DNA of 64,000 bases from Bacteroidia bacterium (GTDB taxonomy: Bacteria; Bacteroidota; Bacteroidia; J057), in the NCBI GenBank assembly GCA_030430575.1, contig JAUIKF010000018.1:62001-126000 (forward strand), in the 5' to 3' direction. The notes below the pieces were generated by a model. It was not told the DNA's origin. It did no database searches and saw only the letters and a program-made list of their open reading frames with translations. Below, piece by piece: positions 11,143 through 51,649 of this stretch. Within the stretch, counting starts at the first letter, position 1; every line of letters starts with the position of its first letter. Position numbers and translations under genes: made by a program.

Positions 11143-12327
11143 CTATTGCCAAGGACCTTCCTTGGTAACGGTAATAAAGGATTTCTCCTCATACCGAAAT
11201 AGCCCTCCCCAGCCGCCGAGCCAAAATCGTCCTTCTTGGTCTTCTAAAATGCTCAGGATCCCATTGGTGGGAAGACCTTCCTCCTTATATAGATTGGTAA
11301 AGGAATTTCCATCGTAAGAGAAGACCCCGTGATTCTCGGCAGCGAACCATATATCGCCCCTTTTGTCTTCATAAAAACCGCTGATTTCAATTCCGTCAAT
11401 CACGCCGTCTTGGGTATAGTTGGTAAATGATTTTCCACCTGTCTTGAGCGTTCGACTGAGCTCACGCCGAAGTCTTGCCGAAGGATCAAATTTACTTACC
11501 CCGCCAAACATGGTCCCTATCCAAATATTTCCTTTGGTATCTTCCATCATCCCACTGACATTATTATCAGGAAGTCCGTCTTTCTTTGTCAAATGTGAAA
11601 ACTTTCCTGTTGAGGGATTGTATTGGCAAATGCCCATTCCGTCCGTACCAAACCAAAGGGTTCCCTCTCGATCTTCTAGGATGCTTGAGATCCGATCAGG
11701 AGATAGGATGATATTAGGACTGTCTACTTTTGCTTGTGGGATGGGAAAAGGGGTGAACATTTTCTCCCCCGCTATATGCGCTTTGGAAGGATCAAACTGA
11801 TAAACCCCTTCTATCGTACCGACCCAAAATATCCCCTTACGATCTATGATTAAGCTCCAAATTTCACTTTCATGCAATCCTTCTCCCTGGGCATAATTGG
11901 TAAATGAATGGCCATCAAACTGAGTGAGCCCTCCATACGTGCCGAACCATATATTGCCAGCGTTGTCCTCTACAATTCCTGTTACCCTTCCCATACCGAC
12001 GCCGTCGTCTTCATCAAAATAGGCCAGCGTATCTCCATCATATCGCATGATGCCAAAGTGGTTGGTGGCAAACCAGAGATCACCCCTTGAGTCTTGAAAG
12101 ATATTGCGGACCCACGCACATATCTGTCCATCGATGAAGAATAAGTCTTCGATCCATCCCCTATTTTGGGTAGGGAGTTGACTGCCCGATGCTGAAGTAT
12201 CTTGGGAAATAGGAACGGAATCGGCCGCGCTGTTTTGGGGCACATGGGTTTTATGTGGCCCGTTGCATGCAATCATAAAAAGAGCCACTAAGACATAAGT
12301 CAATAGGGAAATGCTTAAGTATTTCAT
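11143..12327 (-). CDS. Regulator-propeller (Reg_prop) lipoprotein
   Basis: About 394 residues. I start it at the ATG at 12327, giving the lipoprotein signal MKYLSISLLTYVLVALFMIAC with lipobox FMIAC; upstream ATGs would bury that signal. Seven motifs of the type DLWFATNHFGIMRYDG, NIWFGTYGGLTQFDG, TLWFGTDGMGICQYNP, DIWFAAENHGVFSYDG and RFWLGGWGGLFRYEE are spaced evenly, enough for a closed seven-blade propeller. Such repeats usually form the periplasmic sensor of hybrid two-component kinases; here there is no kinase or DNA-binding part. It is probably an envelope-anchored binding protein. It follows the small lipoprotein gene by 20 bases and is likely co-transcribed with it. Confidence 0.88.
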   Translation of the reverse strand: MKYLSISLLTYVLVALFMIACNGPHKTHVPQNSAADSVPISQDTSASGSQLPTQNRGWIEDLFFIDGQICAWVRNIFQDSRGDLWFATNHFGIMRYDGDTLAYFDEDDGVGMGRVTGIVEDNAGNIWFGTYGGLTQFDGHSFTNYAQGEGLHESEIWSLIIDRKGIFWVGTIEGVYQFDPSKAHIAGEKMFTPFPIPQAKVDSPNIILSPDRISSILEDREGTLWFGTDGMGICQYNPSTGKFSHLTKKDGLPDNNVSGMMEDTKGNIWIGTMFGGVSKFDPSARLRRELSRTLKTGGKSFTNYTQDGVIDGIEISGFYEDKRGDIWFAAENHGVFSYDGNSFTNLYKEEGLPTNGILSILEDQEGRFWLGGWGGLFRYEEKSFITVTKEGPWQ

Positions 12328-12347
12328 TTGTTTCGGAACACTCATGA

Positions 12348-12893
12348 TTAACACAGCCATTTCTCAATTCTCAATACCCCTGATTCATACTTGATAATGA
12401 ACGGGACTTGTTCCAGTGTACACTTCGGCTCTATGGTGAATACGAATTTACCACGCACCTCAAAATCATCTTCTGACAAGATCGTTAATGGATATTCATA
12501 TTTTGTATCTACGCTTACCCAATTCACTAGGCCATTCACATATGGATGTGGATCTATTTCCGCTTTTGAACGCGGGGTTTCAGTGAAATTTTCTCCTAAC
12601 ATCACATGGTCATTTTCTTGTAAGTCGATGGTGAATCGTCCTTTAAAACCCGTGGTCGAAAAAGGAGAGACATAAAAACTCCCCCCAAACAATTCCATCA
12701 TCGCAACCAGGGTGTATTGTTTTTTATTGCCTTTTTCTATGGTAAAGGAAAGCTCATAAGGATTGCTCAAGGCTGCTTCCCTATCTGTTAAGGGAACGTC
12801 GTACATGCTCACACTTCGTGTGAGGGGAGTTGATTGTTTTTGTGTGCAACCAATCACGAGGGATAGTAGGCAAAAGGCGATAATGCTTTTCAT
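12348..12893 (-). CDS. Unknown lipoprotein, 181 residues
   Basis: The signal MKSIIAFCLLSLVIGC has a typical lipobox (LVIGC), so the protein is probably lipid-anchored in the envelope. The mature part alternates beta strands (YELSFTIEKGNKKQYTLVAM, KGRFTIDLQENDHVML, RGKFVFTIEPKC) and ends in a cysteine, with a second cysteine in EPKCTL. I do not recognise the family. It lies between another lipoprotein gene and the propeller lipoprotein, with gaps of 61 and 20 bases, which suggests one leftward operon. Confidence 0.8.
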   Translation of the reverse strand: MKSIIAFCLLSLVIGCTQKQSTPLTRSVSMYDVPLTDREAALSNPYELSFTIEKGNKKQYTLVAMMELFGGSFYVSPFSTTGFKGRFTIDLQENDHVMLGENFTETPRSKAEIDPHPYVNGLVNWVSVDTKYEYPLTILSEDDFEVRGKFVFTIEPKCTLEQVPFIIKYESGVLRIEKWLC

Positions 12894-12954
12894 AGGTATA
12901 GTATATTGTTTTGATGGGGGTTTTTCATTTTATCCTGATAGCTCACAATTTCCT

Positions 12955-13887
12955 TTAATCATAGATCATAATATTTCTCTCACTCAGCTCTTTCACTTTT
13001 TTAAACCAGTCGTTCCAACCTACTTTCTGTGCTTCAATGTCTTCGCCATAGGGACCTGCAACGACATACAATTGGGTACCAGTGGAACCTTCCCTTCCCA
13101 ACAGCAGAAACTTTTCCGCATAGTGATCCCCCTCAAAATTGTAATCAACCTGGATATATAAATTTCTCCAAAGCGCTGTTACCATTCCGGTATTCATCCT
13201 TCTATCAGGGGCATAATTGAAGTGAACCTTAGCATTGGCTTTCAGCCCTGGTTCTGTATAGGCATTTTCATCGAACACTTCCTCCGATGACTTCTCATAT
13301 GTCAGGCTGATAATGGTCTTCCAAATTTTCTCACTGGAAGCGTAGATCTCCGCATCAAAGAATACAAAAGGCGTCCCGCCCAATTTGTCCACTTCATCAT
13401 CTGAGAGAAAGGTTACCTCTCCCAGAAAGGCAGAGCCATTTCCTCCATTCAAGTAGCGAAACCCCACAATTGTATCCTTATCAGCCACCACTGCTTGAAT
13501 GACAATGACTAGTTCATTTTTTTGGGTGTATTCAGAATAGTACCGTGCCACCCTTGGCATGGTCATATCTAATGGGCTTGCATGGGGAAATTTTTGTGGA
13601 TCAAAGTACAACAGGGAAGTGCCGTTTTGGGTTTCCTCTTTTGTAGGCAAACGATCATTCACCACAGGCACCTGCGCCAATTCTTGGAGGTCAACAGGCG
13701 GGAATCCCCGCAGGTTATCAGGACAAGACCAGCCTCCATATGGGTGCTTTGTAGCATACTTAGGTTTTAGGGGGTACTCCACCGTGATGGGAGATTCTAC
13801 CCTATGGGTGAAATCCGCTTGTTGGCTGCATGATGTCCCCAGCATGCAACAGGCGAGAAGGAGGGAAAAGATGAGTTTTTTAAGCAT
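12955..13887 (-). CDS. Unknown lipoprotein, 310 residues
   Basis: The N-terminus MLKKLIFSLLLACCMLGTSC is a lipoprotein signal with lipobox LGTSC. The mature protein is beta-rich with aromatic clusters (PYGGWSCPDNLRGFPPVD, TIVGFRYLNGGNGSAFLGEV, RNLYIQVDYNFEGDHYAEKF). No catalytic motif or known family was recognised. It sits 69 bases beyond the TonB-C-like gene and 61 bases before another lipoprotein gene, so it probably belongs to the same leftward transcript. It is an envelope protein of unknown role. Confidence 0.8.
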   Translation of the reverse strand: MLKKLIFSLLLACCMLGTSCSQQADFTHRVESPITVEYPLKPKYATKHPYGGWSCPDNLRGFPPVDLQELAQVPVVNDRLPTKEETQNGTSLLYFDPQKFPHASPLDMTMPRVARYYSEYTQKNELVIVIQAVVADKDTIVGFRYLNGGNGSAFLGEVTFLSDDEVDKLGGTPFVFFDAEIYASSEKIWKTIISLTYEKSSEEVFDENAYTEPGLKANAKVHFNYAPDRRMNTGMVTALWRNLYIQVDYNFEGDHYAEKFLLLGREGSTGTQLYVVAGPYGEDIEAQKVGWNDWFKKVKELSERNIMIYD

Positions 13888-13956
13888 AATAATTTTCTGC
13901 TAAGCCCTATGGTATTCACAAGGCCAGTTCTTAAATAAAAAAATCTCCCTTATTAG

Positions 13957-14775
13957 TTAGCAACCATCCACTCCAAAGAAAAACACAAACTCCTGGTCGA
14001 CGTTTTCTCCTGCGGCATTGGTCGCTGGGTTCCATTTTTCTGGCATATTGTTGACCAAATCGATCAGCACTTCATCTAAGGCCTCATAACCCGATGTGGA
14101 TTCAAGGTTCACGTATTTAATCGTGCCATCTTTTGTGACAGTGAAATGCACCCTGCCAGCCTGGAGTTTACCTTGTTCCACAAAGGCTGTAGCTGCTTTG
14201 CTGCTTTCCTTTAGATAGGAGATCAGTGCGTCATAGCCACCAGCGTATTCGGCTTCTTTTTCTGGGACTACGGTTAAGTAGTAGTTGAATTCAAATTCGT
14301 CATTGGGATGATCCCTTAATCCTTCCGGCCCTTCCCCTTTTCTTTTCCCCTTACCCCTTAGGTAGAAGTTAGATGAATAGTCAATGGACTTCAACAACTT
14401 GATTTGGTCAGCATTGAGCACTTCATTATCTCCCATTGCAGCTGTTTCCCCGCCATTGTGGAGGAAAGCGACCCTCATATCAAGAAAGGACACCTTGTCC
14501 CATTCTGCTGACGTGGGGACGATGTCAACAACCGTTTTCGCACGGTGCAAATCGTCCTTGGTGATGGTGGCATTAAACCTAGAGTCGACATTATATACAA
14601 TGTCAATATCCGCCTGGATACGAAAGACATTTGTAGAGACTTGTTCGGCATAGGCTGTTTTTACACACGCCACCTCTTGGTGACTCGCATCCGTTTTGTT
14701 CCAATTCACATATCCAAAAGTAGTAATCCCAAAGGCCATAAGGGCAGCGCAAAGAATGAATAAGTTCTTTTTCAT
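13957..14775 (-). CDS. TonB-C-like exported protein, partner of divergent regulator
   Basis: 272 residues. Residues about 5-22 (FILCAALMAFGITTFGYV) are a signal peptide or membrane anchor. The C-terminal part (about 205-270) reads GRVHFTVTKDGTIKYVNLES, then LVNNMPEKWNPATNAAG and a final strand QEFVFFFG, the pattern of the TonB C-terminal fold. There is no proline-rich spacer as in true TonB, so energy transduction is unlikely; a periplasmic interaction domain is more plausible. The gene is divergent from the membrane-anchored winged-helix regulator at 14910 and shares an operator-like repeat region with it, so it is probably a target or a signal input of that regulator (inference). Confidence 0.82.
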   Translation of the reverse strand: MKKNLFILCAALMAFGITTFGYVNWNKTDASHQEVACVKTAYAEQVSTNVFRIQADIDIVYNVDSRFNATITKDDLHRAKTVVDIVPTSAEWDKVSFLDMRVAFLHNGGETAAMGDNEVLNADQIKLLKSIDYSSNFYLRGKGKRKGEGPEGLRDHPNDEFEFNYYLTVVPEKEAEYAGGYDALISYLKESSKAATAFVEQGKLQAGRVHFTVTKDGTIKYVNLESTSGYEALDEVLIDLVNNMPEKWNPATNAAGENVDQEFVFFFGVDGC

Positions 14776-14834: not shown

Positions 14835-14872
14835 GTAAATCAAGTGTAAATTAATGTAAATCTTGTGTAAAA
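14835..14872. promoter_or_regulatory. Four phased GTAAA direct repeats (operator candidate)
   Basis: GTAAAT begins at 14835, 14846 and 14856, and GTAAAA begins at 14867, so the spacings are 11, 10 and 11 bases, one helical turn each. This is the arrangement expected for OmpR-type winged-helix proteins binding head-to-tail. It lies between the two divergent genes at 13957 and 14910. Confidence 0.65.
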
Positions 14873-14909: not shown

Positions 14910-15809
14910 ATGCGCCTTCATCCTATCCTATACCTTATATTTGCCTTGGCGAGCATCCTGTTAGCGACTTCGGCGAGTCAGGCTCAAATGCCTCAAAGCG
15001 ACCAACGCTTGGAGGTAGCCTTAAGGATGATTGGCCATCAGATACTTCTCAATGCAGGGGACAGTACCTCTCGTGTATTGCCCGTTGAGAAAGAGGACGG
15101 GCATTACAAGATTCAGTTTGACACTGAATTTCAGTTCCAGCCAGAAGAACTGGTTGAAACAGTGAATCGGGTCATTCAGGAAACGGCCATGGGCGGCAGC
15201 TATATTTTGGAAGTAAAGGAATGTACAGCAGGCGAAGTGGTCTATAGCTACCAAGTGGGCAACTTGATTTTTCCCGATGTTACGCCTTGTAAATCGAGGT
15301 CACAACCTCTGGGCTGTTACAGCTTGGTGTTCACCCCGTGGCACTCTGAAAGTCAATTTGGCTTATCCAATTCCGCTACCGATGACACCCTGGCAAATAC
15401 CTCTCCTAAGGCCACTCAAATGGCCTATCCCATCATCGCCATTCTGATTGCCTCTATGATCGGGATGTTCGTCGTTTTTCGGAAAAAACGACTTCAAATG
15501 AAGCGCGACCCCAACGTGATTACGCTAGGCGATTACCACTTTGACACCCGGAACACGGAGTTGGTATTTGGCAAGCAACGCATAGAACTGACCAGCAAAG
15601 AAGCCGATTTGCTGATGCTGCTCTGTGACGCTGTCAATACCACCATCGAGCGAGAAGTCATGCTCCACAGGGTATGGGGAGACGAAGGCGACTATGTAGG
15701 GCGGACCCTAGATGTCTTCATCTCAAAACTGCGCAAGAAGCTTGAGGCTGATCCCAAGGTGAAGATTGTCAATATTCGAGGGGTGGGGTATAAGTTGGTG
15801 GTGGGGTAG
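14910..15809 (+). CDS. Membrane-anchored winged-helix regulator, periplasmic sensor N-terminus
   Basis: 299 residues: signal peptide (1-26), periplasmic domain (about 27-170) with three cysteines C105, C127 and C136, one membrane helix (172-190, AYPIIAILIASMIGMFVVF), basic RKKR stop-transfer, and a C-terminal OmpR/PhoB-type winged helix (about 204-298: ELTSKEADLLMLLC, HRVWGDEG, RTLDVFISKLRKKLEADP, NIRGVGYKLVVG). There is no receiver domain, so signal passes across the membrane in one chain, as in ToxR/CadC but with the order of domains reversed. The winged helix closely resembles that of the response regulator at 49316-50005. It is divergent from a TonB-C-like gene and probably controls that promoter region. 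Confidence 0.9.
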   Translation: MRLHPILYLIFALASILLATSASQAQMPQSDQRLEVALRMIGHQILLNAGDSTSRVLPVEKEDGHYKIQFDTEFQFQPEELVETVNRVIQETAMGGSYILEVKECTAGEVVYSYQVGNLIFPDVTPCKSRSQPLGCYSLVFTPWHSESQFGLSNSATDDTLANTSPKATQMAYPIIAILIASMIGMFVVFRKKRLQMKRDPNVITLGDYHFDTRNTELVFGKQRIELTSKEADLLMLLCDAVNTTIEREVMLHRVWGDEGDYVGRTLDVFISKLRKKLEADPKVKIVNIRGVGYKLVVG

Positions 15810-44321: not shown

Positions 44322-45395
44322 CTAGTTCATTAGCAGGTTTATGAGGCGTCGCACGTCCTCCAAGCTTACAGCTGGGAAGTTGGCAATCCGCAATTGTTTG
44401 CCCTTCATCGGGCCATATCCATTCCCGACGATCAGTCCTTCGGCCGCCAATCTTGATAGCAGTGCCTTATTATCATCTGGTGTGTTCACAACTATAACTG
44501 TCGGCGAGCGATCTGCAGGTATTTTTACAAATAGTTCATACGACGGATGTTGGGCGAAAAAATCGTACAGCATATCCGCTTTTTCTCTCGTCTCTGCACG
44601 GATCTGTTCGATCCCTTTAGACAGCATGTCCTCACACACCTTACCAAGGAGATAGACGGCAGAGATATTGGGCGTCTCTGGGGTCTGATTTTTCTGGGCA
44701 TATTTGAGCAAAGAAGCGAAACTGTGATAACTCCCTACATTTCGCCCTGAAGCCTGTATCGCAGCTGCGCGTTCGATAGCCCTTGGCCCCGCAATCAGCA
44801 CCCCTAGCCCTGCCGGTAGGCCAAAACATTTTTGCACAGAAAAGTACCCTGCGTCTACCTGCGACCAATCCACCGCCGCATAAGGAGCGATAGACACCAT
44901 ATCGAGCGTCACGAGTGCCTCTGGATATTTTGCTCGAAACTGATAAATCTCATCCAAAGAAAGCCTTACGCCCGTACTGGTTTCATTTAAGGTGAAATTG
45001 ATGAGGTCAGGAACGTGAGTGAGAGATTTTGGATCAAAATCTACCCCCTCTCCCCAAGGCACCTCCACCTTCTCTGGCGCATGTCCTAGCGCTGTGACAA
45101 TGTCAAAAAAGCGACGGGAGAAAGAACCATTCACAAAATGTAGGCTATGCCGATCCAGGCAATTCTGAGCCAGGCGTTCCCATATCTCCGTTGCGGAGCT
45201 GAAGAAGAATACCTGAAAATTTCCAGGAACCCCCAACAATTCCTTCACATGGCCTACAGCCTTCGCATGTATCGCCTGATACGTCGCACTACGGTGCGAC
45301 TGGGAGAATAATTGCTGGGTCAGTCCTTCGATAAGGTGCTGATGGACAGTAGGATAAAGCGCAGCAGGTCCTGGGGTGAAGAAGGTTTTTTTCAT
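44322..45395 (-). CDS. Class V aminotransferase (phosphoserine-aminotransferase-like)
   Basis: About 357 residues from the ATG at 45395 (MKKTFFTPGPAALYPT); an ATG three codons earlier is also possible. The class V fold is shown by FTPGPAALYP, FFFSSATEIWE, NETSTGVRL and the PLP lysine in FSVQKCFGLP, and by ADRSPTVIVV near the end. It is closest to the SerC/alanine-glyoxylate group of fold-type I PLP enzymes and may be the pathway enzyme for serine synthesis, but neighbours give no pathway context, so the exact substrate is open. Confidence 0.88.
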   Translation of the reverse strand: MKKTFFTPGPAALYPTVHQHLIEGLTQQLFSQSHRSATYQAIHAKAVGHVKELLGVPGNFQVFFFSSATEIWERLAQNCLDRHSLHFVNGSFSRRFFDIVTALGHAPEKVEVPWGEGVDFDPKSLTHVPDLINFTLNETSTGVRLSLDEIYQFRAKYPEALVTLDMVSIAPYAAVDWSQVDAGYFSVQKCFGLPAGLGVLIAGPRAIERAAAIQASGRNVGSYHSFASLLKYAQKNQTPETPNISAVYLLGKVCEDMLSKGIEQIRAETREKADMLYDFFAQHPSYELFVKIPADRSPTVIVVNTPDDNKALLSRLAAEGLIVGNGYGPMKGKQLRIANFPAVSLEDVRRLINLLMN

Positions 45396-45532
45396 GGGAG
45401 GCAAAATTCGGGATTTTTATTGTAATTATCCCGGCCATTACCTTTTGTTTTATTATCAATTTAGGTATCTTCATAAAGGAAATAACGGACAATACAAACA
45501 CATTTTCCAAAGAAACGGTTTGGTGATAAATT

Positions 45533-46278: not shown

Positions 46279-47415
46279 CTAATTCACCACCAATTTCTTA
46301 TTCATCACCTTGCCATTCTGGCTGATATTGAGGAAATATACGCCACTGGCTTCACCTGTCAAGTCGATTTCTTTTTCGTAAGGACCACTGAAGTCGACGA
46401 GCTTCTCGCCATAGATTTTCTGCCCTTGAGCGTTCAGGACGCTGATATTGACGTCACCTGCTTCGGCAGCTTCAAAGCTCAGGTTGAAACGACCATTGCT
46501 GGGATTGGGGTAGAAAGATAGCTCATTCACAGCAAGACTGTTTTTTACATCTCCGACTTCAATACCAGAGTCGCGCAGAAGCTCTTCATCATCTGTAGAA
46601 AGGTCCTCTACTTCTACAAATACCGCAATTCGGATCATTTTCTTGACGACTTTTTTGCCATCATCTTCGGCATCTACCGTCACACTGACTTGCATTTCTT
46701 TAGTCACTTCTTGTTCCACATCGGCATCATCTCCAGCGTGTTTATGGATAAAGACATTTTCTCCGTCGTCTGTCTTGAATTGGAACATATTAGCGCCTTC
46801 TTTCACCTCAATGCCCATTTCTTCCAGCTTGGCGCGGGTCTCTGGGTCGAGTTCTTCCATCTCAATAGACTCAAAAGCCTTTTTGATTTCTCCTTCAATT
46901 TGTTCGCCTAAACCATCCAGCTTGATATTAAAATGATTTTCTCCATCATCGCTATGCCACTCAAAATGCTGGTTGCCATCCATTTCAAAAACTTCCCCAT
47001 TCTCTCCCTGAAACTTCAGATGAAGTTCTTTCGCTTTTTCCATCGCAGCTTCCACCTTGGCCTGCATCTCTGCATCCAAGCCTTCCATAGAGATTTCGCC
47101 GTCCGCGTTGTGCTTGAACTTAAACACATTGTGAGCGCCTGATTCTCCGTCAGTATCGACTTTGATCTGAATAGTATGGCTGTCTCCGTCATGTGATTCA
47201 TGTACATCGGCATCGACGCCTACGGCTTCCATTAGCGCCTCGACGTCAATATCGCTGTCACTCGTTACGGTGGTATCGATCACGGTTTTCACGCCGTCGA
47301 TCTCTTTGGTCATCTTGATCGTGACCGTGTTTTTCTTTTCTGTTGTAGTGGGCTGTTGGGCAAAAAGACCAACTGCCAAACATAGAAGGGTTAGAATAAG
47401 AGAAATTCGTTTCAT
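46279..47415 (-). CDS. Acidic T9SS-secreted protein divergent from kinase/regulator
   Basis: 378 residues: signal peptide MKRISLILTLLCLAVGLFAQ, a very acidic and Asp/His-rich middle (DVHESHDGDSHTIQIKVD, AEMQAKVEAAMEKAKEL), and a C-terminal T9SS type A sorting domain (FYPNPSNGRFNLSF to VYFLNISQNGKVMNKK). It should be secreted and surface-attached or released. The acidic repeats may bind metals, but this is inferred. It is divergent from the HisKA kinase and OmpR regulator genes with operator-like repeats in between, so it is a likely target of that system and perhaps part of its sensing. Confidence 0.87.
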   Translation of the reverse strand: MKRISLILTLLCLAVGLFAQQPTTTEKKNTVTIKMTKEIDGVKTVIDTTVTSDSDIDVEALMEAVGVDADVHESHDGDSHTIQIKVDTDGESGAHNVFKFKHNADGEISMEGLDAEMQAKVEAAMEKAKELHLKFQGENGEVFEMDGNQHFEWHSDDGENHFNIKLDGLGEQIEGEIKKAFESIEMEELDPETRAKLEEMGIEVKEGANMFQFKTDDGENVFIHKHAGDDADVEQEVTKEMQVSVTVDAEDDGKKVVKKMIRIAVFVEVEDLSTDDEELLRDSGIEVGDVKNSLAVNELSFYPNPSNGRFNLSFEAAEAGDVNISVLNAQGQKIYGEKLVDFSGPYEKEIDLTGEASGVYFLNISQNGKVMNKKLVVN

Positions 47416-47545
47416 TGGAATAAAATTGAGGGTTAGAAAAAGAAAAAGAATTATTGGCTTGTGTAAAATGGAAAATCAACTCCTATTTTAATTTCCATTT
47501 TGATTCGTTCCTAATCTCTAATACTCCAAATGTAAGCGAAAAGCC

Positions 47546-47585
47546 GTTAAATCGGTGTTAAAGAAAAGTTAAAGTACCTGTTAAA
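47546..47585. promoter_or_regulatory. Four phased GTTAAA direct repeats (operator candidate)
   Basis: GTTAAA begins at 47546, 47557, 47568 and 47580, spacings of 11, 11 and 12 bases. The set lies between the acidic T9SS gene and the HisKA kinase gene and resembles the repeats at 14835-14872. The OmpR-type regulator encoded at 49316 is the obvious candidate binder. Confidence 0.65.
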
Positions 47586-47623
47586 CTGAACATCTAGGCA
47601 TAGATTCCTTATTTTTACCTTAG

Positions 47624-49246
47624 ATGAATAAACGCACCCTCTATATCATTATCGGCTTGATGAGTGTCGCGCTAGTGGGCATCATAGGGCTCCAAGCGTA
47701 CTGGATCTCCAAGGCCCTAAACTTGAGTCAGCGCAATTTTGAGACCCATGTAAACAATGCCATGCGCCATGTCGTGCGCCAGCTAGAGCAGCGGGAAATG
47801 AATCAATTTTTGATTGTAGCAGCAGGCATGGAAGCAGAGGGAGTCAGGGTAAAAGTATTTGACCATTCAGAAGAATCAGAAGGACATGAACTGGGCGATA
47901 GTATTCGGGTAAATTATTCTTCAGATGCCGTTTTCTTGAGTGAAAATCATCTTCCAGATGGAGAGGTACAAATACGGGTTCAAGCAAGTACAAGCAGTAG
48001 TTCTGACGATACAGTTTGGGTTGATCATACAGTTGGGGCAAATGTCAAAAGAGCGATTAGGCATATGCCGCTATCAGGGCTAAATCTGTGGGCTGAAGAA
48101 CGTTTGTCAGAACATTTACATCACCTGGAAAAAGAAGAGTCTGACATTGAAGAAATGTTTGCTAGGACGCTTCAATTTGTTGCATCTCCATCCAAAACCA
48201 TCGGTGAGCGGATCGACATTACCCAGTTGGACACCTTGCTCTCACAAGCTTTTCGCGATGCAGGCATCACCTTGGACTACCAGTTCATGGTCTTCAAAGA
48301 CAGGAAAAAAGAGGTCGTTTTCAAAACGAGCAATGCCTCAGAAGGGTCCCTATTTGAGACCAAGCACCAGATTCAGCTTTTCCCCAATTCTTCGGGCGTA
48401 TTTCGCTCCTTACTGGGCGTCTATTTCCCCAGTCAACGCTTACATACCTTCGGTGATGTCTGGGGCTTGGCGAGTGCCTCCTTCTTTTTTACCAGCATCA
48501 TTCTGATCTGCTTTGCCTTGACTATCCGTGCTATCCTCCGCCAGAAAAAGCTCTCCGAGATGAAGAATGACTTCATCAACAATATGACCCACGAGTTCAA
48601 AACCCCTTTGGCAACCATTTCCCTGGCCACAGATGCCCTCAATGCCCCGATGGTCCGTGAGCAGCCCGAGAAGATGAACTATTACACCCGCATCATCAAG
48701 GAAGAAAACCAACGCATGAACCAACAGGTAGAACGCGTTCTTCAAATCGCACGGACACAGATCCGACTCAAACCCGTCACCCTTGACATGCATCAAGTCA
48801 TCGAGCGTGCCGCCGAAAACATCCAATTGCATGTGGCTAAGCGTCAAGGGAAAGTGACCCTTGACCTCGCAGCTGCCCAGACGAGTCTGCAAGGCGACGA
48901 AGTCCACCTCACCAATCTATTCACCAACCTCCTGGACAACGCCAATAAATATAGCCCACAAGCCCCTGACATATCCATCCGTAGCTGGAACGATGACGGA
49001 ATGCTGGCTATCAGCGTGGGGGATAAAGGACTGGGGATCAGCAAGTCTGATCTGGAGAAGGTCTTTGACCGATTTTATCGTGTCTCAACCGGTAACCTTC
49101 ACGATGTGAAGGGTTTTGGGCTGGGGCTTAGCTATGTGCGAGAGATCGTACAGGCACATCACGGAGAGATCCGCGTGAAAAGTAAAGTTGGTCAAGGGAC
49201 GACGTTTACGGTGTATTTGCCAATCGATGAGCGTTCTAGGTTTTAG
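47624..49246 (+). CDS. Sensor histidine kinase (HisKA), two-helix sensor
   Basis: 540 residues: a membrane helix at 7-27, a periplasmic loop with acidic and hydrophobic patches, a second helix at about 283-305, a phosphoacceptor segment NNMTHEFKTPLATISL with H323, and a HATPase domain with LFTNLLDNANKYS (N box), VGDKGLGISKSDLEKVFDRF and GFGLGLSYVREIVQAHHG. The usual HisKA kinase layout; the receiver for its phosphoryl group is the OmpR regulator 70 bases downstream. The periplasmic sensor has no named domain, and the signal is unknown. It is divergent from the acidic T9SS gene. Confidence 0.95.
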   Translation: MNKRTLYIIIGLMSVALVGIIGLQAYWISKALNLSQRNFETHVNNAMRHVVRQLEQREMNQFLIVAAGMEAEGVRVKVFDHSEESEGHELGDSIRVNYSSDAVFLSENHLPDGEVQIRVQASTSSSSDDTVWVDHTVGANVKRAIRHMPLSGLNLWAEERLSEHLHHLEKEESDIEEMFARTLQFVASPSKTIGERIDITQLDTLLSQAFRDAGITLDYQFMVFKDRKKEVVFKTSNASEGSLFETKHQIQLFPNSSGVFRSLLGVYFPSQRLHTFGDVWGLASASFFFTSIILICFALTIRAILRQKKLSEMKNDFINNMTHEFKTPLATISLATDALNAPMVREQPEKMNYYTRIIKEENQRMNQQVERVLQIARTQIRLKPVTLDMHQVIERAAENIQLHVAKRQGKVTLDLAAAQTSLQGDEVHLTNLFTNLLDNANKYSPQAPDISIRSWNDDGMLAISVGDKGLGISKSDLEKVFDRFYRVSTGNLHDVKGFGLGLSYVREIVQAHHGEIRVKSKVGQGTTFTVYLPIDERSRF

Positions 49247-49315: not shown

Positions 49316-50005
49316 ATGAATAATTCCTTATTGTTAGTTGAAGACGAGTACAATTTTGGGGCTGTGCTCAAAGATTATTTGGGCATGCAGGGGTTTGAAG
49401 TGACCTGGTGTCAAGATGGAGAGGCGGGAGCAAAGGCCTTTCACTCAGGGTATTTTGACCTGTGCATCTTGGACATCATGATGCCGTTAAAAGACGGATT
49501 TACCCTGGCTGAGGAAATCAGAAAAGCACGGCCCCAGCAACCCATCATTTTCCTGACGGCACGTTCGCTCCGAGAAGACGTCATTCAAGGCTTTAAGCTA
49601 GGCGCGGACGATTACATCACCAAGCCCTTTGACTCGGAAGAACTCCTCTACCGCATCCGCGCCATCCTCAAGCGTAGCCAAAGCGAATCTCCTGTTGAAG
49701 ATCAACCCCAACAATTTAACCTGCACGATTACACCTTCGACCACGAATTTCGCACCCTCACTTTAGGCGAAAAAAGCATACGCCTTTCGCCCAAAGAATC
49801 AGACCTGCTCCACTTGCTTTGTTTACAAAAAAATGATCTCCTATCTCGCGAAAATGCCCTCCGCATGCTCTGGGGAGACGATAATTACTTCAATGGAAGG
49901 AGCATGGATGTATTTGTCAGCAAATTGCGCAAATACCTCAAGGAAGATCCGCGGATTCGGATCGAGAATATTCATGGGAAGGGGTTTAGGTTAGTGGTAG
50001 AGTGA
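49316..50005 (+). CDS. OmpR-family response regulator
   Basis: 229 residues. The receiver (about 1-120) has E9-D10, phosphoacceptor D53 in CILDIMMP and K103 in YITKPFDSEELLY. The C-terminal winged helix (about 135-228) reads RLSPKESDLLHLLCLQ, RMLWGDDNYF, RSMDVFVSKLRKYLKEDP and NIHGKGFRLVVE. It is very similar to the winged helix of the one-component regulator at 14910-15809. Partner of the kinase immediately upstream. The GTTAAA repeats upstream of the kinase gene are a plausible autoregulatory site. Confidence 0.96.
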   Translation: MNNSLLLVEDEYNFGAVLKDYLGMQGFEVTWCQDGEAGAKAFHSGYFDLCILDIMMPLKDGFTLAEEIRKARPQQPIIFLTARSLREDVIQGFKLGADDYITKPFDSEELLYRIRAILKRSQSESPVEDQPQQFNLHDYTFDHEFRTLTLGEKSIRLSPKESDLLHLLCLQKNDLLSRENALRMLWGDDNYFNGRSMDVFVSKLRKYLKEDPRIRIENIHGKGFRLVVE

Positions 50006-50209
50006 GCCGCTCCCTGCGGTCGCTGCGAGAGTCGAGACCGCTCGGCTCGAAGACTCGCCTTCGCTGTGGGATAAGAGGATGTCTGCCCTAAATCTCACAG
50101 CGAGTCTTCGAGGGATCCCACAGTGAGGAGCTTTGCGACGAACGGTCTCGCAGCGAGCCCGCAGGGTGAGCGGTCCCGCAGAGAGGAGCAATAGCTACGA
50201 ACGGTCTCC
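50006..50209. repeat. GC-rich palindromic element between convergent genes
   Basis: Downstream of the regulator gene is an unusually GC-rich stretch with repeated and inverted units: AGTCTTCGAG and its complement CTCGAAGACT, ACGAACGGTCTC repeated at about 50138 and 50196, and GAGACCGCTC near the left end. The strand can fold into long imperfect hairpins. It may serve as a double terminator or be a mobile palindromic element. Confidence 0.7.
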
Positions 50210-51649
50210 TTACCAATCAAACTCATGTCGTAAGACCCGCTCAAACAGCTGCTCAAGTGCCTGGGGGTCTCCATTGAGCTTGTGTAGCTCCACAGAGAAA
50301 AACACCTGGTTGGTGCGGCCATTGGTGAATACGGTACGGCCACAAATAGTCGCAGGTCCTTGCCAGTTGCCTGATGTTTTCAGAGGAGTTGTGTAAATGT
50401 CGTTAGCTGGGTCTTTTGCATAAAAAGGATCTGCCCCAGAGATGAAATTGGAACAGATAAGCGGGGGAAAATCAGCGGCGAAAGCAGCGGTGGACCGAAT
50501 CACACTATCGGATGGGATTCGCGCCTGTCCTTCAGAAGTTGAGATGCTATCCATAGGCGAAAACCCAAACACAGCCGAAGCGCCTGAAACAAGCGAACTG
50601 TTGAAGGTGGTAGGAAATCGGGTGGTCCCAAATAATTTTCCGCCTTCATTCAGGTATACTTGAAGCTGATTGGAAGCCACTTCTATATGTAATAAGGAAC
50701 CGAGGCTCGCCTGTGCAGTCCCATCACTGTACCAGAATACCTGGTCATACAAATTGAGGAATATGCCAAATGTAGGGTCCCAAAAAGGCGGCGTGTTAGC
50801 TGCAAGGTCTAAGAAATCATAAGTGAAGCCTCCTTTTGCCAAAATCTCCCGATACAAATCGGTGGGCGTATCTGATGAATGATCATCGATGACCAGGAGG
50901 TCATTTCCTTTTTGCTTGACAAAAAACACTTTTGAAGTATCTGATAAGCTGAAGCTTCCAGCAATATCTCGTGCACGCAAATAGAGCCTGTTTTCTCCCC
51001 CCACAATCAACCCTTCGATCGGAGTAGTTTCCTTGATGGCATTTCTCCCAGTATACAGAATGCCAGGCTGTAATGTGTTTTGATCTGGCTGACTGGGGAC
51101 TACTGTGACAAAGTCCATTTGCCGAGGAAGGGAGAACCATGCCCCATCATTTAACTTGATAAAAACAGAATCCAACGTCTGAAACCCATCAAGGTCATCG
51201 ACCTTCCACTGCGCAGAAAATACAGAATAGACCGTGTCAGGGATCAGAATGACTGAATCTAGGTTAGCGACTGGAGGGGTGTTTTTGATAGGGACCAATA
51301 AATAGGCTGGCGTAGGGTCCGCCAAGCCTTCTCCATCAATGGCCCGCACCCAGAAATCGATGTCTGTTGTATCGGAATTCAATTCCAAATCAAAGCGAAA
51401 CGTACTGTCTTGAATCGTAACGTAATGCCACACCACCTCATCTAGTGAAAGCTCATATCCTGCGACATAGCCATCCTTGTCTTCGCCTGACCAGTGCATG
51501 GTCACGACACTATTGAGTCGATCCTGACCACTCAGGTTGATTTCGGTCAGGAATAATTTGGTCTCTGGAGGAAGGTTATCCAGCAGTTGGCCTTCCTTGC
51601 AACTGATCATACTGACCAGGACCAGGAAATAAAGGAGGAAGTGTTTCAC
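50210..51649 (-). CDS. Fn3-like lipoprotein of secreted-protein cluster
   Basis: About 480 residues. I place the start at the GTG at 51649, which gives a lipoprotein signal KHFLLYFLVLVSMISC with lipobox SMISC; a TTG farther upstream is less natural. Fn3-like strands follow (VVTMHWSGEDKDGYVAGYEL, and DSVFSAQWKVDDLDGF region), then a long beta-rich C-terminal half of unknown type. No T9SS domain is present, so it is probably lipid-anchored. It is the last of three leftward genes (50210-56184) that all encode exported beta-rich proteins. Confidence 0.8.
   Translation of the reverse strand: MKHFLLYFLVLVSMISCKEGQLLDNLPPETKLFLTEINLSGQDRLNSVVTMHWSGEDKDGYVAGYELSLDEVVWHYVTIQDSTFRFDLELNSDTTDIDFWVRAIDGEGLADPTPAYLLVPIKNTPPVANLDSVILIPDTVYSVFSAQWKVDDLDGFQTLDSVFIKLNDGAWFSLPRQMDFVTVVPSQPDQNTLQPGILYTGRNAIKETTPIEGLIVGGENRLYLRARDIAGSFSLSDTSKVFFVKQKGNDLLVIDDHSSDTPTDLYREILAKGGFTYDFLDLAANTPPFWDPTFGIFLNLYDQVFWYSDGTAQASLGSLLHIEVASNQLQVYLNEGGKLFGTTRFPTTFNSSLVSGASAVFGFSPMDSISTSEGQARIPSDSVIRSTAAFAADFPPLICSNFISGADPFYAKDPANDIYTTPLKTSGNWQGPATICGRTVFTNGRTNQVFFSVELHKLNGDPQALEQLFERVLRHEFDW

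Follow-up and report, generated by a model that had tools for sequence, protein, structure and literature searches.

Results

Genes and features of the locus

The locus lies in a stretch of 64,000 nucleotides of Bacteroidia DNA, which was analysed as a whole and is referred to below as the window, and it consists of a short repeat array flanked by a kinase-regulator operon and a divergent gene. Its features are as follows:

46279..47415, minus strand: divergent gene for an exported acidic protein with a T9SS sorting domain (Por_Secre_tail), the proposed target
47527..47534, minus strand: candidate -7 element TACATTTG (TAnnTTTG) of the divergent exported gene, 11 bp from the first repeat
47546..47585, plus strand: putative operator of four GTTAAA repeats (direct reading, pattern counts, conservation 5' of orthologous kinases)
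47610..47617, plus strand: weak candidate -7 element TATTTTTA of the kinase gene, with one mismatch to TAnnTTTG, 30 bp after the start of the last repeat
47616: alternative candidate -7 element of the kinase gene, TACCTTAG
47624..49246, plus strand: RprX-like sensor histidine kinase (HisKA and HATPase_c; orthologs within the family)
49316..50005, plus strand: RprY-like response regulator, the putative array binder (Response_reg and Trans_reg_C; best NCBIfam model RprY)

Rereading the sequence directly, we found GTTAAA words starting at 47546, 47557, 47568 and 47580, with spacings of 11, 11 and 12, exactly as a preliminary description made from the sequence had them; the neighbours it gave, a kinase gene and a divergent gene for an acidic T9SS protein, were likewise borne out by domain matches. 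The kinase gene starts 38 bp after the array (at 47624) and is followed on the same strand by the regulator gene, as in RprXY operons. The kinase harbors HisKA and HATPase domains and the regulator a receiver with a phosphoacceptor Asp and an OmpR-type winged helix, the domains expected of RprXY, and both the phosphoacceptor (D53) and H323 are invariant in alignments. Among NCBIfam models, the regulator scored 292 bits with RprY and 173 bits with the next one, Bacteroidota PhoB, and since 292 bits falls below the RprY equivalog cut-off of 370 bits, we refer to it as RprY-like and not as RprY. The intergenic region that follows it (50010-50210) is G+C-rich and contains the repeated GCGACGAACGGTCTC (at 50135 and 50194).

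The product of the divergent gene belongs to one cluster with eight neighbouring proteins encoded divergently from RprX-like genes in other genomes. When this protein was folded alone, a usable model was obtained for the T9SS tail only (pLDDT 47 overall), and because it possesses this tail it may exit the periplasm. In a genome of the same genus (L007), an aminotransferase gene resembling the one at window 44322-45404 replaces the divergent T9SS gene on the 5' side of the kinase, and only two repeats remain upstream of the kinase.

The signal of the array is its phasing

Spaced GTTAAA pairs occur three times in the window, against 0.04 expected, and none of 100 shuffles contained at least three, whereas single GTTAAA words are not enriched there and even slightly depleted (25 versus 35 expected); the signal of the array is its phasing, not the abundance of its word. 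When the entire genome (8.16 Mb) was scanned for further GTTAAA arrays by pattern search, the spaced triple was found at the 47546 locus only, and exact GTTAAA pairs were not above control (10 matches versus 18 in the control). Because single words were uninformative and pairs did not exceed their control, only phased arrays of at least three words were used.

Arrays of this type at random positions, unconnected to OmpR-type regulator genes, would speak against a regulatory role, and this is for the most part not what the genome contains, as exact GTTAA triples with 10-11 bp spacing occur at just two places, the 47546 array and one site at a contig end. The latter (G000:C5:25557-25593; L083 1501-1537, minus strand) is a perfect GTTAA array with spacings of 11, 10 and 11, which apparently lies between two convergent gene ends with no evident promoter; it possibly belongs to a small RNA or to a regulator beyond the contig break.

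Arrays precede the RprY-like regulators of the same genome

The genome encodes ten winged helices of the family, five of them RprY-like and five others. The RprY-like group, whose members are 39-54% identical, comprises the window regulator, the protein encoded at 14910 of the window, and those of C14, C86-190k and C126. A four-repeat array precedes all five (shuffle p about 0.001-0.002, best core), with matches to GTTAA of 20, 18, 18 and 17 of 20 and a match to GTAAA of 20/20 at 14910, and at all five an exported protein is encoded divergently from the regulator operon. By comparison, four of the five OmpR-type loci that are not RprY-like have no array, and the fifth, a PhoB locus, has a TTAA array of its own, with words at 11, 11 and 11 bp before the PhoB-like regulator (G000:C71; L041 4790-4940), a possible Bacteroidota Pho box.

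An orphan copy of the layout, with no regulator gene seen adjacent to it, faces a GLPGLI-type gene at C86:149219. Since the C14 system, too, has a GLPGLI-like gene as its divergent neighbour, this copy may be a target in trans.

The phased array is conserved across much of Bacteroidota

Upstream of each of the eight kinase orthologs within the family are two or more GTTAA words spaced by 10-11 bp; in L008, L009, L011 and L013 there are four words at 11, 10 and 11, and in L012 four words at the same spacing, one of them degenerate. Scanning 395 Bacteroidota genomes for the family layout yielded 43 matches, compared to 4 for the reversed pattern, and of the 30 matches inspected, 20 adjoin an RprX-like kinase, most of them having an exported gene in divergent orientation as well.

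We also assembled a set of loci independently of the motif, consisting of 136 RprY-like regulators collected by protein similarity, 124 of which have a kinase-sized frame just upstream. Words were counted in 420 bp around the kinase start, and the expectation was taken from the rest of the same loci. At the 124 loci, GTTAA was found 351 times in forward and 99 times in reverse orientation, with about 56 expected, an approximately sixfold forward enrichment, and GTTAA pairs at 10-11 bp numbered 119, with about 0.4 expected. The distances between forward words peak at 10 (78), 11 (41), 20-21 (56) and 31 (25), each with a control of 0.0-0.3, and words one base off GTTAA show no phasing at these kinase-regulator loci. 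An array score of at least 17 of 20 was reached at 54% of the 124 loci, versus 14% on the reverse strand and 0.2% in shuffles. Like the repeats of OmpR/PhoB tandem operators, these are direct repeats in the same orientation about one helical turn apart, and all that copies and species have in common is GTTAA, the spacer bases being variable.

The recurrent design put forward for the window, i.e. regulator, divergent exported target and phased repeats, hence extends beyond it, arrays being the rule at these 124 loci. Phased GTTAA is also found at two loci whose regulator scores above the RprY cut-off. At about 20-30% of RprY-like loci, those of Prevotella and Porphyromonas uenonis representatives among them, no array is recognisable. 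In three members of one family (L084, L085 and L086), a conserved four-repeat array of the GTTAA type lies behind an MreB-like gene, and no two-component gene is seen around it.

Arrays and candidate -7 elements usually lie a set distance apart

Promoter elements were assigned by the Bacteroidota -7 and -33 consensus (PMC7366714). On the divergent side, most of the relatives that possess the TAnnTTTG element have it 22 bp from the first repeat; family orthologs in which both -7 elements are recognisable have one 22 bp before the first repeat and the other 32-33 bp past the point where the last repeat starts, and at the five RprY-like loci of the genome itself the divergent distance is exactly 22 bp in four. 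Phylum-wide, exact TAnnTTTG at loci with a good array clusters 32-34 bp past the last repeat, or one to two repeats closer, with the divergent -7 element (TAnnTTTG, read as CAAANNTA) preceding the first repeat by 22-23 bp. The window locus deviates from this geometry, with its spacing of 11, 11 and 12, a kinase gene lacking an exact TAnnTTTG and only 11 bp to the divergent -7 element. In total, the window copy falls short by about one turn, consistent with the loss of one repeat unit. Scans for sigma-70-type promoters and for terminators, which are unsuited to Bacteroidota, performed no better than on shuffles.

The repeat word follows the regulator

The second array of the window faces a regulator of a different architecture:

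13957..14775, minus strand: divergent gene for an exported protein facing the GTAAA array (TonB_C match)
14835..14871, plus strand: putative sister operator of four GTAAA repeats with spacings of 11, 10 and 11 (GTAAA kept in orthologs)
14910..15809, plus strand: membrane-anchored winged-helix regulator with an RprY-type DNA-binding domain and no receiver

The GTAAA words start at 14835, 14846, 14856 and 14867, 22 bp from a divergent -7 element (CAAATATA, 14805) and 31 bp before TAGTTTTG (14898). The preliminary description had taken the two arrays to be similar, which holds for the layout and not for the word, as the one near 14910 consists of GTAAA instead of GTTAAA. Nor is the protein encoded at 14910, counted there as a second regulator, a two-component response regulator: one hydrophobic segment lies at its N-terminus and another near residues 171-192, the C-terminal part is a winged helix, and a domain search found no receiver. 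Its winged helix is closest to RprY (100 bits, next model 57, NCBIfam), yet on comparison only 46% identical to that of the 49316 regulator, to which it had been described as very close. Four genes, mostly for exported proteins, face 14910 on the minus strand (11143-14775), the last of them encoding a propeller-type protein, and propeller-type sequence also adjoins matches in L273 and L317.

Counting pairs at 10-11 bp, with related sequences taken as separate loci so that the numbers are counts and not independent events, we found 119 pairs of GTTAA versus 1 of GTAAA in the 124 kinase-regulator loci, and 0 versus 24 in 22 loci of the 14910 family. Orthologs of 14910 thus keep GTAAA and never pair GTTAA, and therefore the repeat word follows the regulator. 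No other sequence evidence speaks as strongly as this agreement for the adjacent regulator being the one that reads the array.

In five relatives of 14910 (L304, L308, L309, L310 and L314), GTGTCAAA-type words at 11 bp replace GTAAA, perhaps as a third word class. A GTAAA triple at C46:43383 was dismissed as a promoter array, being located within a coding frame and not at the promoter of the C46 winged-helix gene.

Divergent neighbours are frequent and mostly exported

A divergent neighbour is present at 46 of 67 array loci, 38 of these neighbours having a signal-peptide-like N-terminus by a crude hydrophobicity rule. They fall into GLPGLI-like proteins (17), unnamed exported proteins (10), the family that includes the window protein (9) and DUF1573. 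The other 21 loci are co-directional, many of them located behind coaE, and control of a divergent gene is accordingly less general than autoregulation; judging by this distribution, autoregulation would be the common core of the design, to which control of an exported neighbour is often added.

Discussion

A proposed autoregulatory and bidirectional operator

The repeats described here are conserved in word, spacing and orientation, they keep their position relative to the -7 elements, and their word agrees with the regulator subfamily. Inferring from these observations the binding of the regulator, its dependence on phosphorylation, the sign of regulation and the signal, we consider it very probable that the array is the operator of the RprY-like regulator encoded downstream of it, which would regulate its own operon and also control the divergent exported gene. 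Upon stimulation, the RprX-like kinase would phosphorylate the regulator, which would then occupy the GTTAAA words as tandem dimers arranged head to tail, one word per turn on one face of the helix. As the last word ends just 5' of the core of the kinase promoter, binding should autoregulate the kinase-regulator operon and most likely activate it: the geometry puts the last word beside the -33 region of this promoter, an activating position by analogy with other OmpR regulators. The divergent exported gene should have its -33 region where the first words lie, and would thereby come under the control of the same bound regulator; it stands divergent from the operon with the intergenic array between them, a Cpx-like layout that suggests shared control.

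An array confined to controlling the kinase-regulator operon, with the divergent exported gene functionally unlinked to it, strikes us as rather unlikely. Such a restriction would agree with the co-directional third of the array loci (21/67), many behind coaE, and with the aminotransferase gene at the divergent place in the same-genus genome, but it leaves unexplained why the divergent neighbours belong again and again to a few exported families (GLPGLI-like, DUF1573, acidic T9SS and the unnamed family of ten), why the divergent -7 element keeps its 22 bp to the first repeat, and why the orphan layout at C86:149219 faces a GLPGLI-type gene with no regulator gene seen adjacent.

It is less probable still that another regulator, e.g. 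a global OmpR-type protein such as an analogue of PhoB or ArcA, binds the array and that the neighbouring regulator gene is merely a target. Words of the OmpR family do resemble one another, the PhoB locus of the same genome also has TTAA repeats at 11 bp, and the Riemerella motif discussed below has been likened to that of ArcA; however, the array goes with RprY-like genes, four of the genome's five remaining OmpR-type loci have none, exact copies at further places in the genome are very rare, and the word switches to GTAAA in the membrane winged-helix subfamily. To the notion of a functionless tandem repeat born by chance or slippage we give practically no credence. Short A+T-rich words and the uneven spacing of the window copy are what it has in its favour, and we reject a chance or minisatellite origin because the spacer bases vary while the word persists together with its spacing and orientation across the phylum.

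A layout shared by a regulator family

Returning to binding by the adjacent RprY-like regulator, its logic is ordinary for OmpR regulators, while the phylum-wide layout and the two-word code seem undescribed so far; in the open-access literature we found no description of the phased layout or of a GTAAA class in Bacteroidota. With less confidence than in the operator itself, we lean towards a generalization in which the RprY-type family, two-component and membrane-anchored one-component members alike, uses one rigid bidirectional promoter layout with two words: a divergent -7 element, 22 bp, four words at 11-10-11 or 11-10-10, about 32 bp, and a second -7 element. In this generalization, duplication and word change (GTTAA/GTAAA) would multiply dedicated exported-protein circuits. 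The layout offers a sequence signature for promoters of a widespread and little-studied regulator family in a major phylum, links RprY-like regulators to recurrent exported proteins of unknown function (GLPGLI, DUF1573 and acidic T9SS), and provides a natural two-word system for studying specificity change in OmpR-type winged helices.

Comparison with known systems

RprY is known from gut and oral Bacteroidota. The RprX-RprY system (Bacteroides fragilis, Porphyromonas; NF051850) has the same kinase-regulator order, and RprY is the best model for the window regulator by a wide margin, although the latter stays below the equivalog cut-off; the accessible parts of the RprY papers give no binding motif. 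Independent experimental evidence in favour of the proposed operator comes from Riemerella anatipestifer, where the OmpR-family regulator called PhoP, encoded in a kinase-regulator operon, is reported to have a DAP-seq core of TTTAACA, to shift its own promoter and to count GLPGLI genes among its direct targets (PMC9603813, PMC5399024). The reverse complement of TTTAACA holds GTTAAA, and the likeness is one of motif, operon type, binding to the own promoter and GLPGLI targets. The accessible parts of the reports name a motif and not a phased multi-repeat layout, and the 583 peaks (PMC9603813) indicate a much broader reach than the rare arrays of the window type suggest.

In Staphylococcus aureus, SaeR recognises the direct repeat GTTAA-N6-GTTAA, with an 11 bp period, and autoinduces the sae operon (PMC5083920). 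It differs in having two half-sites per site and in its phylum and promoter type, and we do not claim orthology. In the Cpx system, cpxP is an exported gene divergent from the cpxRA two-component operon. CpxR of Escherichia coli binds GTAAA-(N)4-8-GTAAA direct repeats (PMC5063474). While the exported proteins of the Bacteroidota loci show no sign of kinship to CpxP, the layout is similar in both, the Cpx version differing in its two half-sites and in placing the regulator gene first.
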